Positions 10,345 to 32,969 of a DNA stretch of 35,712 nt are shown piece after piece. Both the position numbers and the translations under genes were made by a program. Source of the stretch: Bacteroidota bacterium (GTDB taxonomy: Bacteria; Bacteroidota; Bacteroidia; AKYH767-A; OLB10); NCBI GenBank assembly GCA_963169675.1, contig CAUJFJ010000040.1:1-35712 (forward strand), read 5' to 3'. The notes beneath the pieces were generated by a model that ran no database searches, was not told the origin of the DNA, and worked only from the letters and a program-made list of their open reading frames with translations. Positions within the stretch are counted from its first letter, which is position 1; the number at the start of each line of letters is the position of its first letter.

Positions 10345-10476
10345 ATGAAAAAAATAACTGCACTTCTCCTGTTGGTTTCTGCTATCGTTTTTGTGAGTTC
10401 TTGTAAGCCAAGGGAAAAATGCCCTGCTTATGGTAAAAACATGCCTAAGAAGGTGCAGCCTGCTGCTCATTCATAG
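10345..10476 (+). CDS. Small lipoprotein of unknown function, 43 aa
   Basis: Tiny lipoprotein: a Lys-rich start, a hydrophobic stretch and a lipobox-like VSSC (Cys20), leaving a mature peptide of only 24 residues. The peptide contains CPAYG, a motif I associate with short lipoproteins in many Bacteroidota whose role is not known. The frame extends upstream to 10264, but those residues are not leader-like and the putative promoter lies there, so the ATG at 10345 is preferred. The gene stands alone, with its own promoter and a strong hairpin terminator 22 bases after the stop, which argues that it is real and perhaps well expressed. Confidence 0.75.
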   Translation: MKKITALLLLVSAIVFVSSCKPREKCPAYGKNMPKKVQPAAHS

Positions 10477-10498: not shown

Positions 10499-10530
10499 AT
10501 CCGCCACCCCAAAGTGGCGGATTTTCATTT
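10499..10530 (+). terminator. Rho-independent terminator after the small lipoprotein gene
   Basis: Perfect stem CCGCCAC/GTGGCGG (10501-10507 with 10514-10520), extended by two A-T pairs, with a six-base loop CCCAAA and a T-rich tail on the + strand. Confidence 0.85.
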
Positions 10531-10577: not shown

Positions 10578-10609
10578 TTTGACTTTTATACTTTTAAGTA
10601 CTTACTTTG
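10578..10609 (+). promoter_or_regulatory. Putative promoter of the membrane protein-regulator pair
   Basis: TTTG at 10578-10581 and TTACTTTG at 10602-10609, spaced 20 bases apart, match the Bacteroidota pattern TTTG-N20-TAnnTTTG with one mismatch. The -7 box lies within the left arm of the palindrome at 10603-10621, an arrangement suited to repression. The start codon at 10629 leaves a leader of roughly a dozen bases. Confidence 0.5.
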
Positions 10610-10621
10610 CAATTCAAAGTA
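10603..10621. promoter_or_regulatory. Palindromic operator candidate 1 (TACTTTG-N5-CAAAGTA)
   Basis: Perfect 7-base arms around a 5-base spacer, overlapping the putative -7 box of the operon that encodes the winged-helix regulator. The core ACTTTG-N5-CAAAGT recurs at 11588-11610. The site also sits between two AAGTACTT palindromes whose centres are 21 bases apart. Confidence 0.55.
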
Positions 10622-10628
10622 CTTTCCA

Positions 10629-11264
10629 ATGGAATCAAATCAACACCTCGACAACCTTGCGCACATCAGGTCACTGATGGAGAAATCAACCCGCTTTCTT
10701 TCACTCAGTGGATTAACCGGAGTTGCTGCAGGAGTTTATGCCCTTGTGGCTGCCTTTATTGCGTGGTGGTACCTCGATAATCCTACCGTAGCCGCAACCT
10801 ATTCGCGATTGATTCATCCCCTCCAAATAAGCGGCATTTTGACTCACTACCTGTTTTTTGTTGCTCTGGCGGCAGCCACTTTGGCTATGTCACTGGTAAC
10901 CGGTATTGCATTTACTATGCGAAAAGCTTCCAAAAGAGGTGAAACAGTATGGAATAAAGCTTCCAAACGAATGGCCATTAATCTCATGATTCCTTTAGCT
11001 GCAGGAGGTTTGTTTTGTGCCCAATTGATCAACTACGGTCTTCCTGAATTAGTCGCACCTGCAATGCTTATTTTTTATGGTCTAGCCTTAATTAACGGAA
11101 GTAAATACACGCTGGAGGATATTAGGTATTTGGGATTAATTGAAATAGCACTTGGCATTTTGAACTTGTTTTTAATCTCATACGGCCTCTGGTTCTGGGC
11201 CATCGGTTTCGGATTGATGCATATTGTTTATGGGATAGCCATGTATTACAAATACGAAGCATGA
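10629..11264 (+). CDS. Conserved integral membrane protein, function unknown
   Basis: Protein of 211 aa that I do not recognise as a characterised family. A short hydrophilic N-terminus (HLDNLAHIRSLMEKS) is followed by about six hydrophobic spans (near 25-46, 72-97, 110-130, 135-152, 160-178 and 183-205), so it should sit in the inner membrane. No catalytic motif is evident. The stop overlaps the ATG of the winged-helix regulator by 4 bases (ATGA). This indicates coupled translation and suggests a functional pair, such as a membrane partner or sensor with its transcription factor; that role is inference. Its promoter overlaps a palindrome shared with the next transcription unit. Confidence 0.8.
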   Translation: MESNQHLDNLAHIRSLMEKSTRFLSLSGLTGVAAGVYALVAAFIAWWYLDNPTVAATYSRLIHPLQISGILTHYLFFVALAAATLAMSLVTGIAFTMRKASKRGETVWNKASKRMAINLMIPLAAGGLFCAQLINYGLPELVAPAMLIFYGLALINGSKYTLEDIRYLGLIEIALGILNLFLISYGLWFWAIGFGLMHIVYGIAMYYKYEA

Positions 11265-11551
11265 TTGGTAATCTCAATAAAGCTTTTGAAAACAGAGTCC
11301 GGCTCGGATTGATGTCGCTGCTTATGGTAAATGAGCAACTCGACTTCAACTCCATCAAAGAGTTGCTCGAAATTACTGATGGTAACCTGGCCAGCCATGT
11401 CACAGCATTGGAAAAAGCAGGCTATATTTCAATCATGAAACAATTTGTCGGCCGTAAGCCACAAACTTCTTATAAGGCAACTGCAGAAGGAATAAAAGCT
11501 TTTCAGGAACATCTTGCAGCTCTGGAAAAACTAATCAGAAAAATAAATTGA
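11261..11551 (+). CDS. Winged-helix transcriptional regulator (MarR/PadR-like, single domain)
   Basis: Small DNA-binding protein (96 aa) consisting almost only of one winged helix-turn-helix domain. Helix 1 includes NRVRLGLMSLLMVNE, the recognition helix is TDGNLASHVTALEKAGYI (about 39-56), and the wing runs across KQFVGRKPQTSYKATAEG (about 60-77). A final helix (LAALEKLIRKI) probably makes a dimer. No ligand domain, metal-binding Cys/His cluster or phospho-acceptor is seen. Translation is coupled to the membrane protein by a 4-base overlap. The two similar palindromes at 10603-10621 and 11588-11610 are its most likely operators, implying autoregulation and control of the DUF4173 unit. The family call is firm; the targets are inferred from position. 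Confidence 0.88.
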   Translation: MIGNLNKAFENRVRLGLMSLLMVNEQLDFNSIKELLEITDGNLASHVTALEKAGYISIMKQFVGRKPQTSYKATAEGIKAFQEHLAALEKLIRKIN

Positions 11552-11587
11552 TAAAAATTAATTCACAAATACAATAAAACACGCTTA

Positions 11588-11610
11588 TTCACTTTGAGAT
11601 ACAAAGTGAA
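11588..11610. promoter_or_regulatory. Palindromic operator candidate 2 (9-base arms, N5 spacer)
   Basis: Perfect inverted repeat TTCACTTTG / CAAAGTGAA around the 5-base spacer AGATA. It lies 18 bases before the DUF4173 start codon and 36 bases after the regulator stop. It shares the core ACTTTG-N5-CAAAGT and spacer length with the palindrome at 10603-10621. Confidence 0.6.
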
Positions 11611-11628: not shown

Positions 11629-13209
11629 ATGCTAAAAAAATATGCACTATCAATCACAGGACTGTTATTGCTGCTTATCTACAACTACATTTTCTGGAAC
11701 GAAAAACCGGGAATAAATTTTGGAATATTCAGCACATTACTTGCAGTTTCTCTGGCATTCATCAGACCGCAAATAATCTATCGCACAAACTGGTGGTTCG
11801 CGGTTGTTTGTGTTATAGTGACTGGAATTGGGGTAACACTATTTAATAGCGGCTTGTCGATTGCCATGCACTTTTTCAGTTGTTTGGTGATGATTGTATT
11901 TTCATGGCCGTCCAATGTCAAGTCACCTGCTGTAGCTATCATTAATTTTTTCGCAGGCGCATTCAACCAGGTGCAGACATTTTTTCAGCATGGGATTAAA
12001 TTTATTTCTAAAACTAAATCGGGAAGAACCTTTTTATACTACTTCAAAATAGCAATTGCTCCACTGGTGATCATGGGTATCTATCTGTTGTTGTATAGCG
12101 GCTCCAGCAATACTTTTGCTAACTATTTTAGCAGTTTCTTTAATACCATAGGTCAATTAATAGAGAACTTATTTGAGAATGTAAGTGCTCCGTGGCTGAT
12201 TTTTCTCCTTGGCGGGATGACCTTGATTGCTCTTGCGCTGAAATCAACACCTGCCATTCGCACCATGAATTATCTGAGTGAAGGTTTTGATGATTTATTC
12301 CGGCTTAATAAATCGACAAGAACACCTGGCGGGTTCCGTCAGATGATTTACAGACCGGTTACACCGATGAATGCTATTCGAAAACAATTTAAATCGGGAA
12401 TGCTATTGCTGATTGGCGTTAACATTTTGTTATTGATCTTTAACATTACGGATATTAAAGAAAACTGGTTCGGATATCAGGTGCCGGAAAATTTCAGTCT
12501 TAAAAATTTTGTGCATGAAGCAACCTGGTATTTAATTATAAGTATGTTGCTCTCCATTGTGATTTTACTCTATTACTTTCATGGAAACCTCAACTTCTAT
12601 AAGAAAAACAAAACCATCAAAATATTATCGTATGTATGGATTGTACAAAATACATTGCTTTGCACATCTGTATTACTCAGAAACTGGCACTATATTTCTT
12701 ACCATGGTCTTGCCTACAAAAGGATTGGAGTTTTAGTCTTTCTGGCTTTGGTAATTGTTGGATTAATATCCATGTACAAAAAAATCGAACAGCGAAAAAC
12801 TGCCAGATGGCTTCTCAAAATTAATTCACTGGCCTGTGCGTTTCTGCTTTCTTGTTTATCATTGGTTAACTGGGATCAGGTAATTGTGAAATATAACTTA
12901 AACCATGCCAATACAAGCGAAATCGATGTTGATTTCTATCTGAAGCTCGGACCAGCTGTATATCCGGTATTGTATGAAAACCTTGCTATTATAGAAAAAC
13001 AAATTAATGCACATCATGCCAAACCAACACGCTGGTGTAACACGCAAACCATTCAGGAATTTCGATCCCTGCTGAATACAAAAGCCTCCCGTTTCACTGA
13101 GGTCTACCCCAAATATACCTGGCCTTCCTATAACACTGCTGAAGCAACAGCCTACCATTGGTTAACATCGCAGAATGAAAATCTTAAATTATCTGAAGCC
13201 ATAAAATGA
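11629..13209 (+). CDS. DUF4173 domain-containing membrane protein
   Basis: Large integral membrane protein (526 aa) that fits the DUF4173 family (related to DUF4153), for which I know no established biochemical role. There are about a dozen hydrophobic spans. The loop after the first group of spans contains GFRQMIYRPVTPMNAIRK, followed by a span with GVNILLLIFNITDI. The C-terminal 100 residues are soluble (KLGPAVYPVLYENLAII, ending near HWLTSQNENLK). The gene begins 77 bases after the regulator, behind its own palindrome. It overlaps the next gene by 4 bases (ATGA), so it heads a subunit of the operon that also encodes the 240-aa and DUF1361 proteins. Confidence 0.8.
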   Translation: MLKKYALSITGLLLLLIYNYIFWNEKPGINFGIFSTLLAVSLAFIRPQIIYRTNWWFAVVCVIVTGIGVTLFNSGLSIAMHFFSCLVMIVFSWPSNVKSPAVAIINFFAGAFNQVQTFFQHGIKFISKTKSGRTFLYYFKIAIAPLVIMGIYLLLYSGSSNTFANYFSSFFNTIGQLIENLFENVSAPWLIFLLGGMTLIALALKSTPAIRTMNYLSEGFDDLFRLNKSTRTPGGFRQMIYRPVTPMNAIRKQFKSGMLLLIGVNILLLIFNITDIKENWFGYQVPENFSLKNFVHEATWYLIISMLLSIVILLYYFHGNLNFYKKNKTIKILSYVWIVQNTLLCTSVLLRNWHYISYHGLAYKRIGVLVFLALVIVGLISMYKKIEQRKTARWLLKINSLACAFLLSCLSLVNWDQVIVKYNLNHANTSEIDVDFYLKLGPAVYPVLYENLAIIEKQINAHHAKPTRWCNTQTIQEFRSLLNTKASRFTEVYPKYTWPSYNTAEATAYHWLTSQNENLKLSEAIK

Positions 13210-13928
13210 AAGTTGAATTTTCAATCACCAGAAATACCACTTTGGTAATACTATTCAGTTTGGCGATGGGCTTTCTCGAATCGGCAGTTGTGGTTTATCT
13301 CAGAGAACATTATTATCCGCTTGGCTTTCAATTTCCATTGGTGCCCGTTTCTTTAACAACAGGCATCACCGAAATTGCTCGCGAAGCAGCCACTGTAGTT
13401 ATGTTGGTGTGCATAGGATGGCTCGCAGGATTTAATGCCACTACCCGATTTGCTTATTTCATACTTTCTTTTGCTGTTTGGGATCTAATGTATTATATCG
13501 GACTAAAACTAGTTCTTGACTGGCCAGTTTCTATTCTTGAATGGGACATATTATTCCTCATCCCTTTTCCTTGGCTGGGCCCCGTTTTAGCTCCTTGTTT
13601 ACTATCTGCACTCATGATCATTCTTTCCTTATTCTTATTGAAAAATAGTGTTCAACAGTTATCAATCTTATTGCCGGTAAAATCCTGGTTGCTTCTGATT
13701 ACCGGATCGCTTGTTTGTATTGGGTCGTTTCTGTATGAATACATTCTTTACCGGCAAATGACCATCTCGTCATCCATTCTTCCGGCAAACGAAAGTCAAA
13801 TCATGGCCGATCTTAAAACGTTCATCCCGGGAGAATTTTCCTGGCTTTTCTTTCTATCGGGATTCCTGCTTTTAACCATACCGGTTTATAATCTCATTCT
13901 CAAATCATTCAGAAATACAATAGCATGA
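13206..13928 (+). CDS. Conserved polytopic membrane protein of unknown function
   Basis: Integral membrane protein (240 aa) with about six hydrophobic spans. I cannot name a family, but several segments look strongly constrained: MGFLESAVVVYLREHYYP in the first span, EIAREAATVVML, and a long WDILFLIPFPWLGPVLAP segment (about 116-133) rich in Trp, Pro and an Asp. Charged residues inside spans (Glu in FLES and REAA, Asp in WDLMYY and EWDI) hint at transport or an intramembrane enzyme, but no known catalytic motif is present. It overlaps both neighbours by 4 bases (ATGA), so it is translationally coupled to DUF4173 upstream and DUF1361 downstream. Confidence 0.75.
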   Translation: MKVEFSITRNTTLVILFSLAMGFLESAVVVYLREHYYPLGFQFPLVPVSLTTGITEIAREAATVVMLVCIGWLAGFNATTRFAYFILSFAVWDLMYYIGLKLVLDWPVSILEWDILFLIPFPWLGPVLAPCLLSALMIILSLFLLKNSVQQLSILLPVKSWLLLITGSLVCIGSFLYEYILYRQMTISSSILPANESQIMADLKTFIPGEFSWLFFLSGFLLLTIPVYNLILKSFRNTIA

Positions 13929-14626
13929 AAATACAGACAAAAAGAATTCCGGATCCGGGAAATAAATTAATTTCCATTTTATTGATGACAACAATAATTG
14001 CCTCCTCCTTGATTTTGTACCGTCACGAAATAACAGGCAACAAAACTTATCTTTTCCTGCTATGGAATTTGTTCCTGGCCTGGATTCCACTAATTATTTC
14101 AACATCATTAAAAGCATATACCTCAAAAAAAAGAAACGGACTATTACTGTTGCTTCCTGCTGCATTGTGGTTGCTGTTTTTCCCCAACACCCCTTACATC
14201 ATTACCGACTTGGTTCATCTTAAGCCCAGAAACGACATCGCCTATTGGTATGATTTTCTGATATTGATTTTCTGCTGCTTCAACAGCCTGTTTATAGCTT
14301 TTGCTTCACTAATACAAATGAAACGCATTATTCATAAATATCTCCCCGACTGGCTTAGTCATATTACAACCATTTCTATTTTGGTTTTAACCAGTTTCGG
14401 TATATATTTGGGGCGGTTTGAAAGATACAACAGTTGGGATCTGGTGGCTCAACCTGTCAATTTGTTTACTGATATTTATAGTTTGATCATAAATGCAGGA
14501 CAAAATCACCAAATGGTTTACGTGGTAGGTATACTTGCTATATTCCTTATCTTAAATTATTTCACACTCTTGTTTATAGTTAATGATGCCAGCCATGTCA
14601 ACGAATCAGCACAAAAAGAAAAATAG
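13925..14626 (+). CDS. DUF1361 domain-containing membrane protein
   Basis: Membrane protein (233 aa) of the DUF1361 family, function unknown. There are about six spans. The family-typical segments are LLWNLFLAWIPL (about 43-54), LLFFPNTPYIITDLVHLKP (about 83-101), the YWYDF loop and GIYLGRFERYNSWDL (about 160-174). The conserved Pro-Asn-x-Pro-Tyr and Arg-Phe-x-Arg-x-Asn-Ser-Trp groups are probably functional, although no reaction is known. It follows the 240-aa membrane protein with a 4-base overlap. Its 3' end contains the start of the diacylglycerol kinase gene (up to 44 bases shared), so the whole run should be one transcript. Confidence 0.85.
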   Translation: MKIQTKRIPDPGNKLISILLMTTIIASSLILYRHEITGNKTYLFLLWNLFLAWIPLIISTSLKAYTSKKRNGLLLLLPAALWLLFFPNTPYIITDLVHLKPRNDIAYWYDFLILIFCCFNSLFIAFASLIQMKRIIHKYLPDWLSHITTISILVLTSFGIYLGRFERYNSWDLVAQPVNLFTDIYSLIINAGQNHQMVYVVGILAIFLILNYFTLLFIVNDASHVNESAQKEK

Positions 14627-14960
14627 TTTCAGTTATGCAATAAGTGGCATCATAGAAGTCACCAAAACACAATGGAACTTTCGATTTCATCTTTTTGCCA
14701 TAATAGCTGTGATCATTTCGGGGTTCTTTTTTAAAGTTTCTACCAGCGAATGGCTGGCACTAATTGGTGTTATTGGATTGGTGCTGGTAGCAGAAACAAT
14801 AAACACCGCGCTTGAGTATCTGGTGGATTTAGTGTCGCCTGAATGGAATGAACTTGCCGGAAAAGTGAAAGATATTACTGCGGGAGCCGTATTAATTTCA
14901 GCAATAATTGCAGCCATCACCGGGCTGTTAATTTTTATTCCTAAAACCGGTTTGCTTTAG
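14583..14960 (+). CDS. dgkA: Diacylglycerol kinase family membrane protein
   Basis: Small three-span membrane kinase (125 aa) that phosphorylates a lipid alcohol, either diacylglycerol or undecaprenol; sequence alone does not decide. The signature ETINTALEYLVDLV (about 71-84) holds the catalytic Glu and Asn, and the conserved KVKDITAGAVLIS (about 94-106) follows. The N-terminal amphipathic segment (FSYAISGIIEVTKTQWNFRFH) is typical. In-frame ATGs at 14583, 14586 and 14595 are all possible starts. Each lies inside the DUF1361 gene, giving an overlap of 32-44 bases. The stop is 7 bases before the convergent guaD stop, with no clear hairpin between. Confidence 0.88.
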   Translation: MMPAMSTNQHKKKNSFSYAISGIIEVTKTQWNFRFHLFAIIAVIISGFFFKVSTSEWLALIGVIGLVLVAETINTALEYLVDLVSPEWNELAGKVKDITAGAVLISAIIAAITGLLIFIPKTGLL

Positions 14961-25164: not shown

Positions 25165-28100
25165 TTATCTCACTAAAGTCACAGTGCCTACCCGTTGATG
25201 CGTTTTCCCAAATACGTCTTTAACAGTGACCTGGTAAACATACACATCCTGCTGCGCTAAACCGTTATCTTTTTGTACACTTCCATCCCAACCGGCATCG
25301 CGGCTGCTTGTAGTGTAAATATTTTCACCCCAGCGATTAAATATTTCCAGATTCATGCTTACGATTCCAATTCCTGCAATCGAAAATGCATCATTGATTC
25401 CATCCTGATTTGGTGTGAATGCATTTGGAACATACAGTGTGAACTCAGGAATAATATACACCCAATGCGACACGGTATCAAAACAGCCATAACTGTTCTG
25501 AACATGCAATACTACTTCATACCATCCTGTATCAGGATAAGTATGTACAGGTTCGAACAAAGTTGAACTTAGTCCATCACCAAATGTCCAGTTATATAAG
25601 TTAGCACCGGATGAAGTGTTTTCAAATTCTATTACAGGATGCAATATAGATGCTTCATAAGGATTTGGTGTAAAGGCTGCTTCCGGTCCGGGATAAATGG
25701 TAATAGCATTTGGCTGTGTAAAGGTTTGTGTACATCCCATATCTGTAGTAACAGTAAGTGTTACACCATAAGTTCCACTGGAACTGTAAACGGTTGAAGG
25801 ATTTTGCAGATTAGATGTTTCACCATTTCCAAAATCCCATGCCCAGGCTACGATGGTTCCGGAAGTCACGAATGAAGAATCGGTAAAATAAATTGTTAGA
25901 GGTCCGCAACCTGCTGCCTGACTATAGGTGAAATTAGATACAGGAAGTGGGAAAACAGTTATTTGTTGTGTGGTGGAATCGATACAACCATTGTCGGATA
26001 CTGCAATTAAGGTTATGGTGTACACTCCTGCAGAATCATAAGTATGAACAGGATTTACCAAACCTGAACCAGAAGATCCATCACCAAAATTCCAGATATA
26101 TTGTGTTATTGATCCAGATGATATCGTGGAAGTATTATTGAACTGCACACTGCTTTCAGCACATGCATCCGCAAAATCAAATCCGGGTTCCGGAACAGGA
26201 TAAAGCGTAACTGAAGAAGTTGCACTTGCCACACATCCATTGGCATTGGTCATTGTAAGTGAAACAGCATAAGTACCGGCTGCTGTATATTGATGCATTG
26301 GATTTTGTATCGCTGAAGAATTTCCATCACCAAAAGCCCATTGATAATCGTAAATCGCAGTATCACCAATTGCAGTTATTCCACTGAAAGATGTTGGATC
26401 ACCAAGACAGTTATTCGAAACTGAAATAACAGGAATTGGTAATTCATATACACTTACAGAATCAGTTATTGTTCCTGAACAACCATATAAGGAAGTGACG
26501 GTAAGTGTTACTGCATAATTTCCCGGGCCGGCAAATGTATGATATGGATCGGCTGCGGCAGTTGTTGAGCCATCACCAAAGTTCCAGTTCCAGGAACTGA
26601 TGGAGCCATCAATGGAAGTCGATAAATCGGTGAATGATACCGGTGATTCATCACAGGCATTAACGAAACCAAATGCTGCTACCGGAGCAGCATAAATAGT
26701 AACCTGTTGTGTGATAGTATCACTACATCCATTTTGTGTTGTAGCGATTAACGTCACATTGTAATTTCCGGGAGAAGCATAAACATGTTGCGGGTTCTGA
26801 TCGGTAGATGCATTTCCATCACCAAAATTCCATGAACAATTAATTACGCCACCACCTGCAACCTGCGACTGATTAAAGAATTCAGAAACCGTTCCCTGAC
26901 ACACATCAGCTCTGGTAAAATTAGCCGTTGGCACGGGATAAACATTAATTTGTGATTGAATAGAATCGGTACAACCCTGATCGCTTGTAACCAGCAACGA
27001 TACCTGGTAACTGCCGGGAGTAGCATAACTGTGTACAGGATTCTGGTTCGAAGATGAATTTCCATCACCTAAATTCCAGTTCCAGTTTACTATACTTCCT
27101 GATGCTATAGTTGACAAATCACTTAAATTAACTGTGCTGTATAAACAAGCATCGGATCCATTGAAAGCCGCTGCAGGAACAGGATAAACAGTCACTGATG
27201 CCATTGCAGAATCAACACAACCCTGATCGCTGGTTGCTGTCAGCAATACCTGATACGTTCCGTTTCCGGCAAATAAGTGTGTAGGATTTTGCTGATTGCT
27301 GCTACCACCATCTCCGAAATTCCAGTATACATTCGAAATGTTTGCATTCGAAACTGTTGTAGTTCCCGTAAAGGAAGTTGCAACACCTTCACACACCGGA
27401 GAAGCAGCAATGACAGTCTGTGGATTTGAATAAATTGTTACAGGTTGTGTTAATGATGCTGAACATCCCAAATCAGATGTTGCTGTAAGAGTAATATTAT
27501 AACTGCCTGCACTGCTGTACTGATGAACCGGATTGGAAGTGGTATCTGTTGAACCATCGCCAAATGACCAGGCATATCCGGAAATAGTTCCGTCAGAAAT
27601 AACTGAACTATTGTTTAATGTAACAGCAGTTCCATCACATACATTTGATAAACTGAATTGAGGCAATGGTGTATCATAAACCTGAACTTGCGCAGATATA
27701 GAATCAATGCAACCATTTGTTGAAGCCACTAACAAAGTTGCTGTATAAACACCGGGAGCATTATAAGTATGAACCGGATTCTGATCCGTTGATACATTTC
27801 CATCACCAAAATTCCAATTCCAGTTAGCGAGTGAACCGGTGCTTATTTGTGAAGAATCGGTAAATACAGTTCCTGAACCCAAACAAGCTACTGTATTTCC
27901 AAAAGCAGCAACTGGCATCGGCTCTATGGTAACCGGCTGACTTAACTGAGATGTACATCCCATACCTGTTGTTGCACTGAGTGTGACATTGTAGGTGCCT
28001 GGTGTTGCATATAAATTAGAAGTAGCCTGAGCATTTGAAGAATTCCCATCGCCAAAATCCCACAACCAACCAGTAATGTTACCGGATGCAAGGGTTGTTG

Positions 28101-31100
28101 TATTGGTGAATAAAGTGCTATTGCTTTCACATGTTGGTGATGAAACAAATGATATTGCAGGAACCGGATTGGCAAGAACATTCGATGCAAAGGAAGCTGA
28201 GCATCCAAAAACATCGGTAATGGTTACCGTATAGGAACCAGCAGCTGAAACATTTATAGTCTGGGTGGTAGCACCATTCGACCATAAATAAGTTGCAGTT
28301 GGATTTCCAGCACTTAAAATAGTTGTTTCTCCATCACATATTTGCACATTTGTTGGGTTAGCACTCAATCCATTTCCTCCAACAGTAACTGTTGTTCCGG
28401 CATATCCGATACAACCGTTAGGGCTGATTATAATTACGTCGAAATATCCGGAATCAGAAACCTGAATTGTTTGTGTTGTTTCTCCGTTTGGAGACCATAA
28501 ATAGGATGACCCGGGATTTTGAGCATCAAGAATTGTTGTTGTTCCAATACAAATGAATGCAGGGGATAAATCTGCTATCGGGGTAGGATTAATACCAACA
28601 GAAACGGAGTCCCATGCTTTGCAACCATTAGCATCTGTAACCTGAACTGCATATACACTAGGTAATGTTGGGTTAACATAAATGGATGCTGCTGATGAGC
28701 CGGTTGGAGTCCATTGATAACTTACACCACCGGTTGCAGTAATGGTTGCTGTTGTTCCTTCGCAAATCATTTGATCGGGACCTGCATTTGCTAAAGGCAA
28801 TGGATTAACATTTACTGTAACTGTATCGGTATTCGTACATCCATTCGAACTGGTACCGGTAACTATGTAAGTTGTAGTCTGCATTGGTGAAACAGTCACC
28901 GAATTGCCTGTAATATTTCCCGGCATCCAAATATTCGACAAAGCACCGGTTACATTCAAGGTCACTGGACTTCCTGCACAAACAGTTTTATCGGGACCTG
29001 CAAAAACGTTTGGAAGGTTATTAATATAAACTCTTACACTGTCTGAAGCAGAACATCCATTAACATCTGTTACTGTAACATGATAGGTTGAATTTACCAC
29101 TGGCGTGACTGAAGTTGACTGTGTAGTACTTCCATTGCTCCACAGGTATGATACTCCTCCTGTTGCATTCAATGTTGCGGAAGTTCCTCTGCACAATATT
29201 TGTGGTGAACCGGCATCAGGAACAGGAAGTGGATTAATTAATACGGGTTGTGAAATTGTATCATTACAGCCATTTGAACTTGTCACTATCAGTGATACAT
29301 TGTATGTTCCTGCATTATTGTAAACAGCTGAAGGATTTTGCAATACCGAAGTAGTTCCATTTCCAAAATCCCAGAACCAGGATGAAAGAACACCGCCGGG
29401 AACAGCTGACGTGCTATTGAAAGCAACAGGAGATCCTTTACAACTTTGTCCTGCAGTAAACGAAGCAACTGGTAACGGACTTATTGTAATTTGTTTCTGG
29501 ATGCTATCGACACAACCACCTGCAGTTGTTATCAATAAATCAACAGGATAAATTCCTGGTGCACTGTATGTGTGCGCAGGGTTTTGCTGAGATGCTGTAG
29601 CACCATCACCAAATGACCATTGCCATCCGGTAATATTTCCGACAGAAGTCGTAGAGGTATTCGTAAAGCTAACTGCATTTCCTTCACAACTGTTAAGGAA
29701 AGTGAAGTTTGCTGCTGGTAATGGAAATACATTAAAGGTTTTTATAAGACTATCGACACATCCCATATCAGATGTAACCACCAGAGTAACAGCAAATGTA
29801 CCGGATGAAGGATAATAATGAGAAGGATTCTGTTGTTGCGATACGTTTCCATCGCCAAAGCTCCACGACCATCCGGTTATACTTCCCGAGCCTATGGTAG
29901 ATACATCCATAAATTGCATAGGCTCATTAATACAAACATCGTTTGGTGTGAACTGTGCATCAGGCAAAGGATTTACATTCACCGTTGTTGAAAGTGTTCC
30001 TGAACAACCATTAGCATCAGTTATGGTTACACTATAAGCTCCTGCTGCATTTACAGTTATGGTTTGTGAAGTCGATCCATTTGACCATAAGAAACTATTT
30101 CCGGGATTTCCTGCATCCAGAACTGCACTACCACCTGCACAGAATGCTACGTTGGTTAAATTGTTAACTATAGTTCCTCCCTGACTAACAACACTAGAAT
30201 CGCCACCGGTACATCCAAACTGATTGGTAACAGTTACTGAATAAACTCCTGGTGATGAAACTGGAATTGATTGTGTCGTTTGTCCATTCGACCATAAATA
30301 AGTACTTCCCGGATTTCCTGCATTCAATGAGGAACTGATTCCGGCACAAATAAACAAGTTAGAGAGGTTAACATTTGGCAAAGGATTAACTGTTACAGAT
30401 ACGAAATTCGTAGCACTGCATCCATTGGCATTGGTGCCTGTTACTGCATAAGTTGTTGATGAACCCGGAGAAACTGTTATGGTACCGGTTGTATTTCCTG
30501 AAGGACTCCAGTTGTAGGTGACTCCTCCTGTAGCAGTGAGCGTAACAGACTGCCCCAGACAAATAGCTTGTGACGGAGAAACATTGATTACAGGAAGTGG
30601 ATTTACATTCACATTTACAGTAGCCGAAGCAGTACATCCGTTTGCATCTGTAACGGTAACAGTATAGGTAGTATTGGTTGAAGGAGACACATTAATTACG
30701 TCTGTGGTATATCCTCCGGGACTCCAGGAATAGGTTACTCCACCCGAAGCAACCAGGGTTGCTGTACCACCTAAACAAATAACCTGATTGGCCCCGGCAT
30801 TCGCTACCGGAGGCGGATTAATAGCAATTGTTTGTAAGATGGAAGCCGTACACCCAAAACTATTTGTTACAACTAAAGTAACATCGTAATTTCCGGGATT
30901 GGGATAATTGATAACCGGATTTGAACCGTTTGAAGTCTGACCGTTTCCAAATGTCCAGTCCCATCCTGTGATGGTTCCACCATTTCCGTTGGAGCTATCC
31001 ACGAAAGTGATATTTCCACCCTGACAGGCAACTGCAGAATAAGTGAACGCCGGAATTGGTAACGGATTTATCACAACCTGTTGTACTGTAGTATCAGCAC

Positions 31101-32922
31101 AACCAGTGGTATCGCCGGCAACCAATGTTACGGTATAGGTACCTGGATTTGCATAAACAACACCTGGATTTTGGGATGTTGAACCAGTGCCATTTCCAAA
31201 ATTCCAGTTCCAGTTATAATTTCCGGGAGGTGTTGTGGTATTATTAAATGTTAATGACGTGCCTACACAACCTTGTCCCACATTGAACGCAGCAACCGGA
31301 GGTGGTGCAATAGTAACAGGTACCACAACGGTATCTATACATCCGAATGAAGTCTCAATTATTAAAGAAACATTATACGTTCCGGGACCCGGGAACTGAT
31401 GAATTGGATTTTGAATAGTAGAAGTTCCTCCATCACCAAAATTCCAGTTCCAGGAGATAATAGTACCTCCGGGTAAAGTTGACTGATCAGTGAACTGAAC
31501 CGGAGTGTTCGGACAAGTACCTACAGCAGTAAAGGCTGCAGTTGGCTCAAAAGCATTTGCGACGACAACTGTATCCTGATTCGAGCAAACACCATCGTTT
31601 ACAGTGACAATATAGGTACCTACTCCAACTGTTTGAATTGGTAAGGTAACACCATTACTCCACAAATAAGTATAATTTCCTGTTCCACCGGAAGCAGTGA
31701 CGCTGACAGTTGCAAGGTCATTACAGGCAATAAACTGATCGGGGCCGGCACTCACGTTAATACCAATTACATTGATGCAATAAGAGTAGATCTGAGCGCC
31801 GATCATTGGGCAGGCATCATCATTTACCCGCACTGTAAAACAATATGGATTTGATGAAATATCTGCCTGAGTCGGAGTCCAGCAAAATGTACCGGTTGGA
31901 CGAGTTGCTCCATTCGATGTGAAGGTACCAGCCGGAATTGCACCATCCCAGTTAATAAAAACATTTTGACCTGCGTCTGGATCTGTTGAAAGGATATCAA
32001 AACATAAAGGTTCTCCGGCACAAACGGTGATATCAAAATTATTCGTTCCGTTAATACCTGATAAAGTTGGTAATGTATTATTACAATTTAATACAGTAAT
32101 TTGGATATCACGCTCTACAGTTCCAATCAGCACTCCATTTCTATATTCAGAAACAAGAACTGCCATCACAGTAACTTCCAGATTTTGTGGTGTCATGCAA
32201 ATATCACCTGTTGCCGGATTAAATGATACCGCAGGTGAAGATGTCAGAGGATCAGTAGCGTTAAATGGTGGAATATAATCAACTGTAGTTGTAGCATTCT
32301 GATAAGGTGTAATTAAGGAATAAACCAAGGAATCGCCATCTGCATCATAAGCACCATGATTAAAGCAATATTGCTGCCCAACACATGCAAAAGGAACTGG
32401 TTTGTTCGAGAATGTCGGAGAAGTATTACAAGGACTAATGGTATTATTTAAAGATGCATAGATATAAAATGTACTTGTTCCTGGGTTGGTAATTGTAGTA
32501 ATTGCAGCATTCCGGCAACACAAATTATAACTGAATACCCAGTCGGTGCATTGCATGGGTAAAGTGATCACTCCTTCGTACACCCATTCCTGAATTCCGG
32601 TAAATATTCCACCGTTACAAGATGAAACTGCGGAGGGACATAATGGTGTTACTTCTTGTCCGGTTCCAGGAATCGGATTACAGGTAATACCAAGATTTTG
32701 GCCACAGGTAACTGAACGGATATTTACAAAAACATTGTTGGGTGCCGGTATACCAATACAATCGCGGTAAAATGAAACTCTGATTTTGTAGGTATTACCA
32801 CCGAGACACTCATACGTAAGGTCAGCACCCATTGCATGGCTTGCTTTGGCCTCTCTGAACTGTACCATCAGCAGTAATGCCGTGATTGTGATCAGTAAGA
32901 TTTTTTGTAGCTGTTTACTCAT
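25165..32922 (-). CDS. Giant PKD/Ig-like surface protein with T9SS type B (gliding-motility-associated) C-terminal domain
   Basis: Secreted protein of 2585 aa. The signal peptide ends REAKA (about 1-27). Then follow: a Cys-rich module (about 28-387, starting SHAMGADLTY); one Ig-like module; PKD 1-3 (about 455-700); four Ig-like modules; PKD 4-6 (about 986-1230); five Ig-like modules; PKD 7-17 (about 1590-2492); and a type B sorting domain (about 2493-2585) with VPNAFTPNQDGINDAF and IFNRWGENIY. The PKD core is WxFGDG with NPxHxY and GxYxVxL. The open frame begins at 32964, but the signal peptide starts at the ATG at 32922 and a perfect -7 box at 32962-32969 covers the upstream ATG. Family knowledge predicts export by the type IX system and display on the surface; adhesion is inferred. 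No enzyme domain is seen. Confidence 0.92.
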   Translation of the reverse strand: MSKQLQKILLITITALLLMVQFREAKASHAMGADLTYECLGGNTYKIRVSFYRDCIGIPAPNNVFVNIRSVTCGQNLGITCNPIPGTGQEVTPLCPSAVSSCNGGIFTGIQEWVYEGVITLPMQCTDWVFSYNLCCRNAAITTITNPGTSTFYIYASLNNTISPCNTSPTFSNKPVPFACVGQQYCFNHGAYDADGDSLVYSLITPYQNATTTVDYIPPFNATDPLTSSPAVSFNPATGDICMTPQNLEVTVMAVLVSEYRNGVLIGTVERDIQITVLNCNNTLPTLSGINGTNNFDITVCAGEPLCFDILSTDPDAGQNVFINWDGAIPAGTFTSNGATRPTGTFCWTPTQADISSNPYCFTVRVNDDACPMIGAQIYSYCINVIGINVSAGPDQFIACNDLATVSVTASGGTGNYTYLWSNGVTLPIQTVGVGTYIVTVNDGVCSNQDTVVVANAFEPTAAFTAVGTCPNTPVQFTDQSTLPGGTIISWNWNFGDGGTSTIQNPIHQFPGPGTYNVSLIIETSFGCIDTVVVPVTIAPPPVAAFNVGQGCVGTSLTFNNTTTPPGNYNWNWNFGNGTGSTSQNPGVVYANPGTYTVTLVAGDTTGCADTTVQQVVINPLPIPAFTYSAVACQGGNITFVDSSNGNGGTITGWDWTFGNGQTSNGSNPVINYPNPGNYDVTLVVTNSFGCTASILQTIAINPPPVANAGANQVICLGGTATLVASGGVTYSWSPGGYTTDVINVSPSTNTTYTVTVTDANGCTASATVNVNVNPLPVINVSPSQAICLGQSVTLTATGGVTYNWSPSGNTTGTITVSPGSSTTYAVTGTNANGCSATNFVSVTVNPLPNVNLSNLFICAGISSSLNAGNPGSTYLWSNGQTTQSIPVSSPGVYSVTVTNQFGCTGGDSSVVSQGGTIVNNLTNVAFCAGGSAVLDAGNPGNSFLWSNGSTSQTITVNAAGAYSVTITDANGCSGTLSTTVNVNPLPDAQFTPNDVCINEPMQFMDVSTIGSGSITGWSWSFGDGNVSQQQNPSHYYPSSGTFAVTLVVTSDMGCVDSLIKTFNVFPLPAANFTFLNSCEGNAVSFTNTSTTSVGNITGWQWSFGDGATASQQNPAHTYSAPGIYPVDLLITTAGGCVDSIQKQITISPLPVASFTAGQSCKGSPVAFNSTSAVPGGVLSSWFWDFGNGTTSVLQNPSAVYNNAGTYNVSLIVTSSNGCNDTISQPVLINPLPVPDAGSPQILCRGTSATLNATGGVSYLWSNGSTTQSTSVTPVVNSTYHVTVTDVNGCSASDSVRVYINNLPNVFAGPDKTVCAGSPVTLNVTGALSNIWMPGNITGNSVTVSPMQTTTYIVTGTSSNGCTNTDTVTVNVNPLPLANAGPDQMICEGTTATITATGGVSYQWTPTGSSAASIYVNPTLPSVYAVQVTDANGCKAWDSVSVGINPTPIADLSPAFICIGTTTILDAQNPGSSYLWSPNGETTQTIQVSDSGYFDVIIISPNGCIGYAGTTVTVGGNGLSANPTNVQICDGETTILSAGNPTATYLWSNGATTQTINVSAAGSYTVTITDVFGCSASFASNVLANPVPAISFVSSPTCESNSTLFTNTTTLASGNITGWLWDFGDGNSSNAQATSNLYATPGTYNVTLSATTGMGCTSQLSQPVTIEPMPVAAFGNTVACLGSGTVFTDSSQISTGSLANWNWNFGDGNVSTDQNPVHTYNAPGVYTATLLVASTNGCIDSISAQVQVYDTPLPQFSLSNVCDGTAVTLNNSSVISDGTISGYAWSFGDGSTDTTSNPVHQYSSAGSYNITLTATSDLGCSASLTQPVTIYSNPQTVIAASPVCEGVATSFTGTTTVSNANISNVYWNFGDGGSSNQQNPTHLFAGNGTYQVLLTATSDQGCVDSAMASVTVYPVPAAAFNGSDACLYSTVNLSDLSTIASGSIVNWNWNLGDGNSSSNQNPVHSYATPGSYQVSLLVTSDQGCTDSIQSQINVYPVPTANFTRADVCQGTVSEFFNQSQVAGGGVINCSWNFGDGNASTDQNPQHVYASPGNYNVTLIATTQNGCSDTITQQVTIYAAPVAAFGFVNACDESPVSFTDLSTSIDGSISSWNWNFGDGSTTAAADPYHTFAGPGNYAVTLTVTSLYGCSGTITDSVSVYELPIPVISVSNNCLGDPTSFSGITAIGDTAIYDYQWAFGDGNSSAIQNPMHQYTAAGTYAVSLTMTNANGCVASATSSVTLYPVPEPGFDFADACAESSVQFNNTSTISSGSITQYIWNFGDGSSGSGLVNPVHTYDSAGVYTITLIAVSDNGCIDSTTQQITVFPLPVSNFTYSQAAGCGPLTIYFTDSSFVTSGTIVAWAWDFGNGETSNLQNPSTVYSSSGTYGVTLTVTTDMGCTQTFTQPNAITIYPGPEAAFTPNPYEASILHPVIEFENTSSGANLYNWTFGDGLSSTLFEPVHTYPDTGWYEVVLHVQNSYGCFDTVSHWVYIIPEFTLYVPNAFTPNQDGINDAFSIAGIGIVSMNLEIFNRWGENIYTTSSRDAGWDGSVQKDNGLAQQDVYVYQVTVKDVFGKTHQRVGTVTLVR
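25450..31750 (-). repeat. Coding repeat array: 17 PKD and about 10 Ig-like modules
   Basis: PKD units are about 246 bases (82 residues) and Ig-like units about 213 bases (71 residues). The order is Ig1, PKD3, Ig4, PKD3, Ig5, PKD11. The stretch encoding the WNFGDG core recurs at the DNA level as close variants of CCATCACCAAAATTCCAGTT (read on the + strand; near 26573, 27065, 27797 and 31432), a possible substrate for unequal recombination. Confidence 0.85.
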
Positions 32923-32961
32923 GTCAGGAGGATTAATCGTGAATGATAGGTTTATCACTAC

Positions 32962-32969
32962 CAAATTTA
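32962..32969 (-). promoter_or_regulatory. -7 promoter box of the giant PKD gene
   Basis: TAAATTTG on the minus strand, a perfect TAnnTTTG match about 39 bases before the ATG at 32922. It overlaps the codon of the alternative ATG at 32964 and so argues against that start. A -33 box is not clear. Confidence 0.45.

Follow-up and report, generated by a model that had tools for sequence, protein, structure and literature searches.

Related systems

Modules of the SdpR-SdpI type consist of a small winged-helix autorepressor and a co-encoded membrane protein. The locus considered here, from the genome of a Bacteroidota bacterium, shares this layout, with a winged-helix regulator and a polytopic membrane protein encoded in one operon for which autorepression is predicted. 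The proteins themselves are different. The regulator reaches 13.6 bits against the SdpR cut-off of 100, and its partner, a 211-aa protein called M211 hereafter, has neither a Pfam match (E up to 0.1) nor an NCBIfam match, so that it is not recognisable as SdpI. A PDB fold search with the predicted M211 structure (pLDDT 87) gave no usable match.

In Proteobacteria, creD is driven by the two-component system CreBC (PMC4689548). The same gene is the commonest one after the second of the two sites described below in Bacteroidota relatives (30 of 60, with Coq4 following the site in 13 and DUF4153 in 4). Unlike CreBC, the control predicted from sequence for Bacteroidota is that of a one-component winged-helix protein acting at a different site, and the genome under study has itself no CreD (PF06123) match.

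The regulator resembles PH1061 (1ub9), of the HTH_34 family, both in sequence (E=1.2e-13 with the profile) and in predicted fold. Small repressors of the PadR, MarR and ArsR types (Rv3488, YusO) are alike in fold and in the logic of a palindromic operator. For the HTH_34 family no operator or regulon was found in the literature searched, whereas both can be predicted for the present member. The open-access literature searched held no published description of this regulator, its site, its regulon or the control of DUF4153 genes.

The locus and its two palindromes

The window, that is, the whole stretch of 35,712 nucleotides analysed, belongs to an assembly of 3.87 Mb in 351 contigs (97% complete). 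The cluster is composed of the following features:

10603..10625 (+), predicted operator site 1, TACTTTG-CAATT-CAAAGTA-CTTT, with the palindrome at 10603-10621 and a third half-site CTTT at 10622-10625
10629..11264 (+), M211, 211-aa polytopic membrane protein, start of the regulator operon and conserved partner
11261..11551 (+), 96-aa winged-helix regulator, HTH_34 (PF13601), its start overlapping the M211 stop
11588..11610 (+), predicted operator site 2, TTCACTTTG-AGATA-CAAAGTGAA, with no T7 tract and no third half-site
11629..13209 (+), DUF4153 membrane protein, 526 aa (PF13687, E=4.6e-37), first gene after site 2
13206..13928 (+), M240, 240-aa membrane protein with no Pfam match, overlapping the DUF4153 stop
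13925..14626 (+), DUF1361 membrane protein, 233 aa (PF07099, E=2e-44), overlapping the preceding stop
14583..14960 (+), diacylglycerol kinase (DAGK_prokar; PF01219, E=9.9e-35), overlapping DUF1361

A sequence-only reading of this DNA had pointed out two perfect ACTTTG-N5-CAAAGT palindromes with an equal spacer, at 10603-10621 and 11588-11610, and had proposed that they are operators of the winged-helix protein. Read directly, the sequence has perfect arms and a 5-base spacer at both sites, with the arms of site 2 reaching 9 bp in the window, and the regulator gene sits between them. Seven bases separate site 1 from the M211 ATG (10629), and 18 separate site 2 from the next ATG (11629). The latter spacing was as first given; the gene concerned had been called DUF4173 and is DUF4153 by its Pfam match, an error with no consequence for the argument. 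The form proposed for the site describes its core correctly, but the full site is larger and includes the extra third half CTTT.

M211 has several predicted transmembrane helices, and its homologs beside the regulator are 38-52% identical. Downstream of site 2, the diacylglycerol kinase gene is probably the last of the run; it neighbours the locus in many relatives too, and an M240-type protein is encoded close to DUF4153 in several of them. Ahead of site 1, a 43-aa lipoprotein-like ORF (10345-10476) is followed by CCGCCAC-N6-GTGGCGG (10501-10520) with T-rich sequence after it. This arrangement is a good candidate for an intrinsic terminator and would shield site 1 from transcription that begins further upstream. 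Elsewhere in the window (25165-32964, minus strand), a 2599-aa ORF with a TTG start would encode a very large protein.

The regulator matches HTH_34 with 108.4 bits (cut-off 27), covering positions 1-80 of the 80 in the profile. Its predicted structure (pLDDT 91) displays a winged-helix fold, with a recognition helix (H40-52) and a beta wing (strands 56-63 and 66-73), and finds its best PDB match in 1ub9 (TM 0.86). It falls below the MarR and PadR cut-offs and stands at that of ArsR HTH_5 (22.1 against 22). A PADLOC match to Csa3 (25 bits) was discarded, since a winged helix common to both is most likely all that lies behind it.

Conservation around regulator relatives

Relatives of the regulator were compared at 75 loci (706 kb), nearly all distributed across Bacteroidota, plus one from a Gemmatimonadota MAG. 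The exact motif occurs 127 times in these homologous loci and the reversed pattern not once; all 127 copies have the 5-base spacer, and no half-site pair was found in the 75 loci at spacers 0-4 and 6-12. Allowing up to one mismatch, a site lies ahead of the conserved membrane gene M211 in 74 of the 75 loci, placed as an autoregulatory operator of the M211-HTH operon would be, and the remaining locus (L033) has an exact core copy slightly beyond the scanned stretch. The downstream site, after the regulator, is found at the same tolerance in 68 of 75 and is wholly absent in five (L033, L051, L058, L075 and L076). The order site, M211, HTH gene, site, next gene is kept nearly always. Orthologous clusters retaining the regulator while lacking the palindromes had been named beforehand as the outcome that would speak against the proposal, and the comparison gave the opposite picture. 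It is this comparative evidence, of the decisive kind, that supports the proposed interpretation.

The Gemmatimonadota locus has one near-perfect site (L076:4316-4340), a regulator 53% identical and a weak M211 homolog; either the module has moved from one phylum to another or the assembly is at fault.

In the aligned copies (73 of site 1 and 64 of site 2) the spacer bases vary and the arms are fixed, the outer flanks (A before, T[AG]CTTT after) being nearly fixed as well. The full form can be written ACTTTG-N5-CAAAGT-A-CTTT, with A or G and then CTTT after CAAAGT in nearly all copies. In the third half-site, the first three letters are each present in 73 of 73 copies of site 1 and the last in 72, and at site 2 each letter is kept in 62-63 of 64. 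Most loci phylum-wide also have a near-invariant tract of 7-8 T residues, which directly adjoins the HTH stop codon and lies about 8 nt ahead of site 2 (for example L028:5289-5295; seen in L003-L074). The window keeps the third half-site at site 1 and has neither this element nor the T7-8 tract at site 2, which makes the strength of its site 2 uncertain. Site 2 is without the third half-site also in the sibling species L039 (regulator 95% identical) and in L062.

Predicted promoter geometry

For the Bacteroidota primary sigma factor, a TAnnTTTG box with TTTG near -33 is cited in PMC7366714, and the position of the -7 box is -12 to -5 (PMC9723704). Two elements of this kind are found at site 1:

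10578..10581 (+), candidate -33 element TTTG, 20 bases before the -7 box
10602..10609 (+), candidate -7 box TTACTTTG, one mismatch to TAnnTTTG, sharing the left arm of site 1

Site 1 overlaps this candidate -7 box, as already noticed in the earlier reading. As TTTG-N20-TTACTTTG fits the consensus with one mismatch, transcription is predicted to start near 10614, and site 1 would span about -11 to +12, covering the -7 box as well as the start. Among 73 loci, TTG at the -33 offset is moderately conserved; in the -7 box the first T is present in 72, TTTG in 73 and the second-position A in 31. At site 2 of the window no good -33/-7 promoter is visible, so that a weak promoter or read-through could be the target of control there. 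A reverse-strand promoter at site 2 was considered and rejected: TACTTTG does not fit TAnnTTTG.

Coverage of the candidate -7 box and putative start by site 1 makes repression the likeliest mode. The HTH_34 protein could instead be an activator or a dual regulator that aids the polymerase at a poor promoter by binding close to its -7 box, as might be suggested by site 2 promoters without a recognisable -33 element and by the T7 tract about 20 bp upstream of the centre of site 2 in relatives. The geometry of site 1 is, however, the usual one for a repressor, and we consider activation unlikely.

Which protein reads the site

The palindromes could also be operators of a different, unlinked DNA-binding protein controlling the regulator operon and its neighbours, given that the genome encodes other such proteins, including two further HTH_34 genes. 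The distribution of the site bears directly on this. A first sample comprised 49 Bacteroidia genomes. Two or more exact sites were present in 29 of the 34 that encode a close HTH homolog and in none of the other 15. Genomes encoding the regulator but seemingly without exact sites (G080, G049, G186, G146, G107, G035, G151 and others) have copies with 0-2 mismatches in the same places, part of them upstream only. A second sample of 99 Bacteroidia genomes, some of them also in the first, had the extended site only where the regulator occurs, in 31 of 35 genomes with it against 0 of 64 without (Fisher 1e-21, shared ancestry ignored), and the extended pattern, when reversed, gave 0 in all 99. The window's family includes four other genomes that encode an ortholog, each with a site adjacent to it (with 1-2 mismatches in G293 and upstream only in G296).

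The paralogs narrow the association to one HTH subfamily. No site within 2 mismatches was found at 17 further HTH_34 loci of the window's family (29-38% identical, no M211), nor at one HTH_34 locus outside it (G150, no M211). The recognition helix reads DGNLASH in the site-linked regulator and AGNLSVQ or AGNLSLQ in nearly all site-less paralogs, and the wing residue is K66 in the former and Y66 in nearly all of the latter. Compared between orthologs and paralogs, site presence and recognition helix go together. One of the two further HTH_34 genes of the genome (L079, G000:C195:13733-13999) adjoins ABC-transporter-like genes; its recognition helix is AGNLSVQ, no ACTTTG site accompanies it, and a separate operator of another kind is probable for it.

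The association might, in principle, be due to a further protein that is invariably inherited together with the module. Nevertheless, with the regulator gene always between or beside both sites, and with paralogs of another recognition helix devoid of them, an unlinked protein appears quite improbable as the reader of the palindromes.

A role as RNA hairpins that terminate transcription or tune translation is still harder to sustain. As RNA the palindromes do fold into short stems (-3.8 and -8.6 kcal/mol), and site 2 comes after a stop codon and is preceded in relatives by a U7 tract, but the one-mismatch exceptions break the stem with no compensatory change to restore it, the invariant third half-site is outside the stem, and the predicted start within site 1 leaves its left arm untranscribed. 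The T7 tract and palindrome were also considered together as an intrinsic terminator and rejected: the tract precedes the stem, the wrong side for termination, and most loci are without a G+C stem before the tract. We regard the hairpin explanation as very improbable.

Counts within the genome are, taken alone, uninformative. A scan of the assembly, which the sequence-only reading had put forward as a check, returned two exact copies of ACTTTG-N5-CAAAGT, both flanking the regulator locus, and three copies of the reversed control pattern. When one mismatch is tolerated there are 13 sites genome-wide and 23 in the control, and since such sites are rarer than the control no extra regulon member is claimed in this genome. 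The count is not enriched and proves nothing by itself; the placement and the conservation are what is non-random. That the palindromes arose by chance in AT-rich intergenic sequence, for which one could invoke this lack of enrichment and the thirteen 6-bp-arm N5 inverted repeats of the window (about 9 expected), is already refuted by conservation, the same sequence recurring in the same two places across the phylum and, once, in a MAG of Gemmatimonadota.

Sites elsewhere in the genomes

The 99 genomes contain 55 extended sites, 15 of which show no linkage with the HTH gene. Among 23 extended sites inspected, earlier examples included, 16 lie at most 120 nt before an ATG, oriented as sites 1 and 2. 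Unlinked sites precede three DUF4153 genes in three genomes (L156, L226 and L227), two Coq4-like genes (one just below the Pfam cut-off), two polysaccharide-export protein genes and several genes for a membrane protein of 187-192 aa that matches no Pfam family. The families recur in cis after site 2, as given above for CreD, Coq4 and DUF4153. Control of the DUF4153 genes through site 2, as predicted at the outset, draws its strongest support from the sites before unlinked DUF4153 genes.

Tandem copies were observed about 100 bp apart before a DUF4153 gene (L226, G275:C27:52978-53098) and 27 bp apart between acyltransferase and glycosyltransferase genes, related to the envelope (L152:2049-2092); they suggest cooperative binding in some species. 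Four extra exact sites (L145, L146, L148 and L155) are intragenic and have no third half-site, and were set aside as chance occurrences.

Proposed mode of action

In summary, both palindromes are very probably operators of the 96-aa HTH_34 protein encoded between them, as the sequence-only reading had suggested, with support from the presence of the upstream site in 74 of 75 loci and from the restriction of the extended site to genomes with the regulator (31 of 35 against 0 of 64). An HTH_34 dimer would read ACTTTG-N5-CAAAGT, aided by the third half-site CTTT just downstream; the distance of 11 bp between half-sites, close to one turn of the helix, suits a dimer that contacts both from the same side of the DNA. 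Bound to site 1, the dimer would exclude RNA polymerase, leading to autorepression of the M211-HTH operon, and bound to site 2 it would control the DUF4153, M240 and DUF1361 genes and perhaps that of the diacylglycerol kinase. By analogy, M211 may plausibly sense the state of the envelope and relieve repression.

A broader scenario can be proposed only tentatively, as somewhat short of probable: a phylum-wide envelope regulon in which an M211 sensor would hold or release the HTH_34 repressor, and a tripartite operator would control genes for CreD, DUF4153, Coq4-like, polysaccharide-export and other membrane proteins.

Implications

Regulator-operator pairs are ordinary in principle, and what sets this one apart is its unusually strong comparative support, together with the wide regulon behind the regulator, which apparently has not yet been described. 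A very widespread uncharacterised regulator gains in this way a precise predicted operator and a list of target families. Since the extended form is distinctive (0 in the 64 genomes without the regulator), the regulon can be read directly from genomes. Its predicted targets and partners include families with no assigned function, namely DUF4153, M211 and the 190-aa and 240-aa membrane proteins, and creD, elsewhere a two-component target, becomes linked in Bacteroidota to a different type of switch. Taken as a whole, the findings point to a conserved switch for membrane-protein genes across most Bacteroidota.
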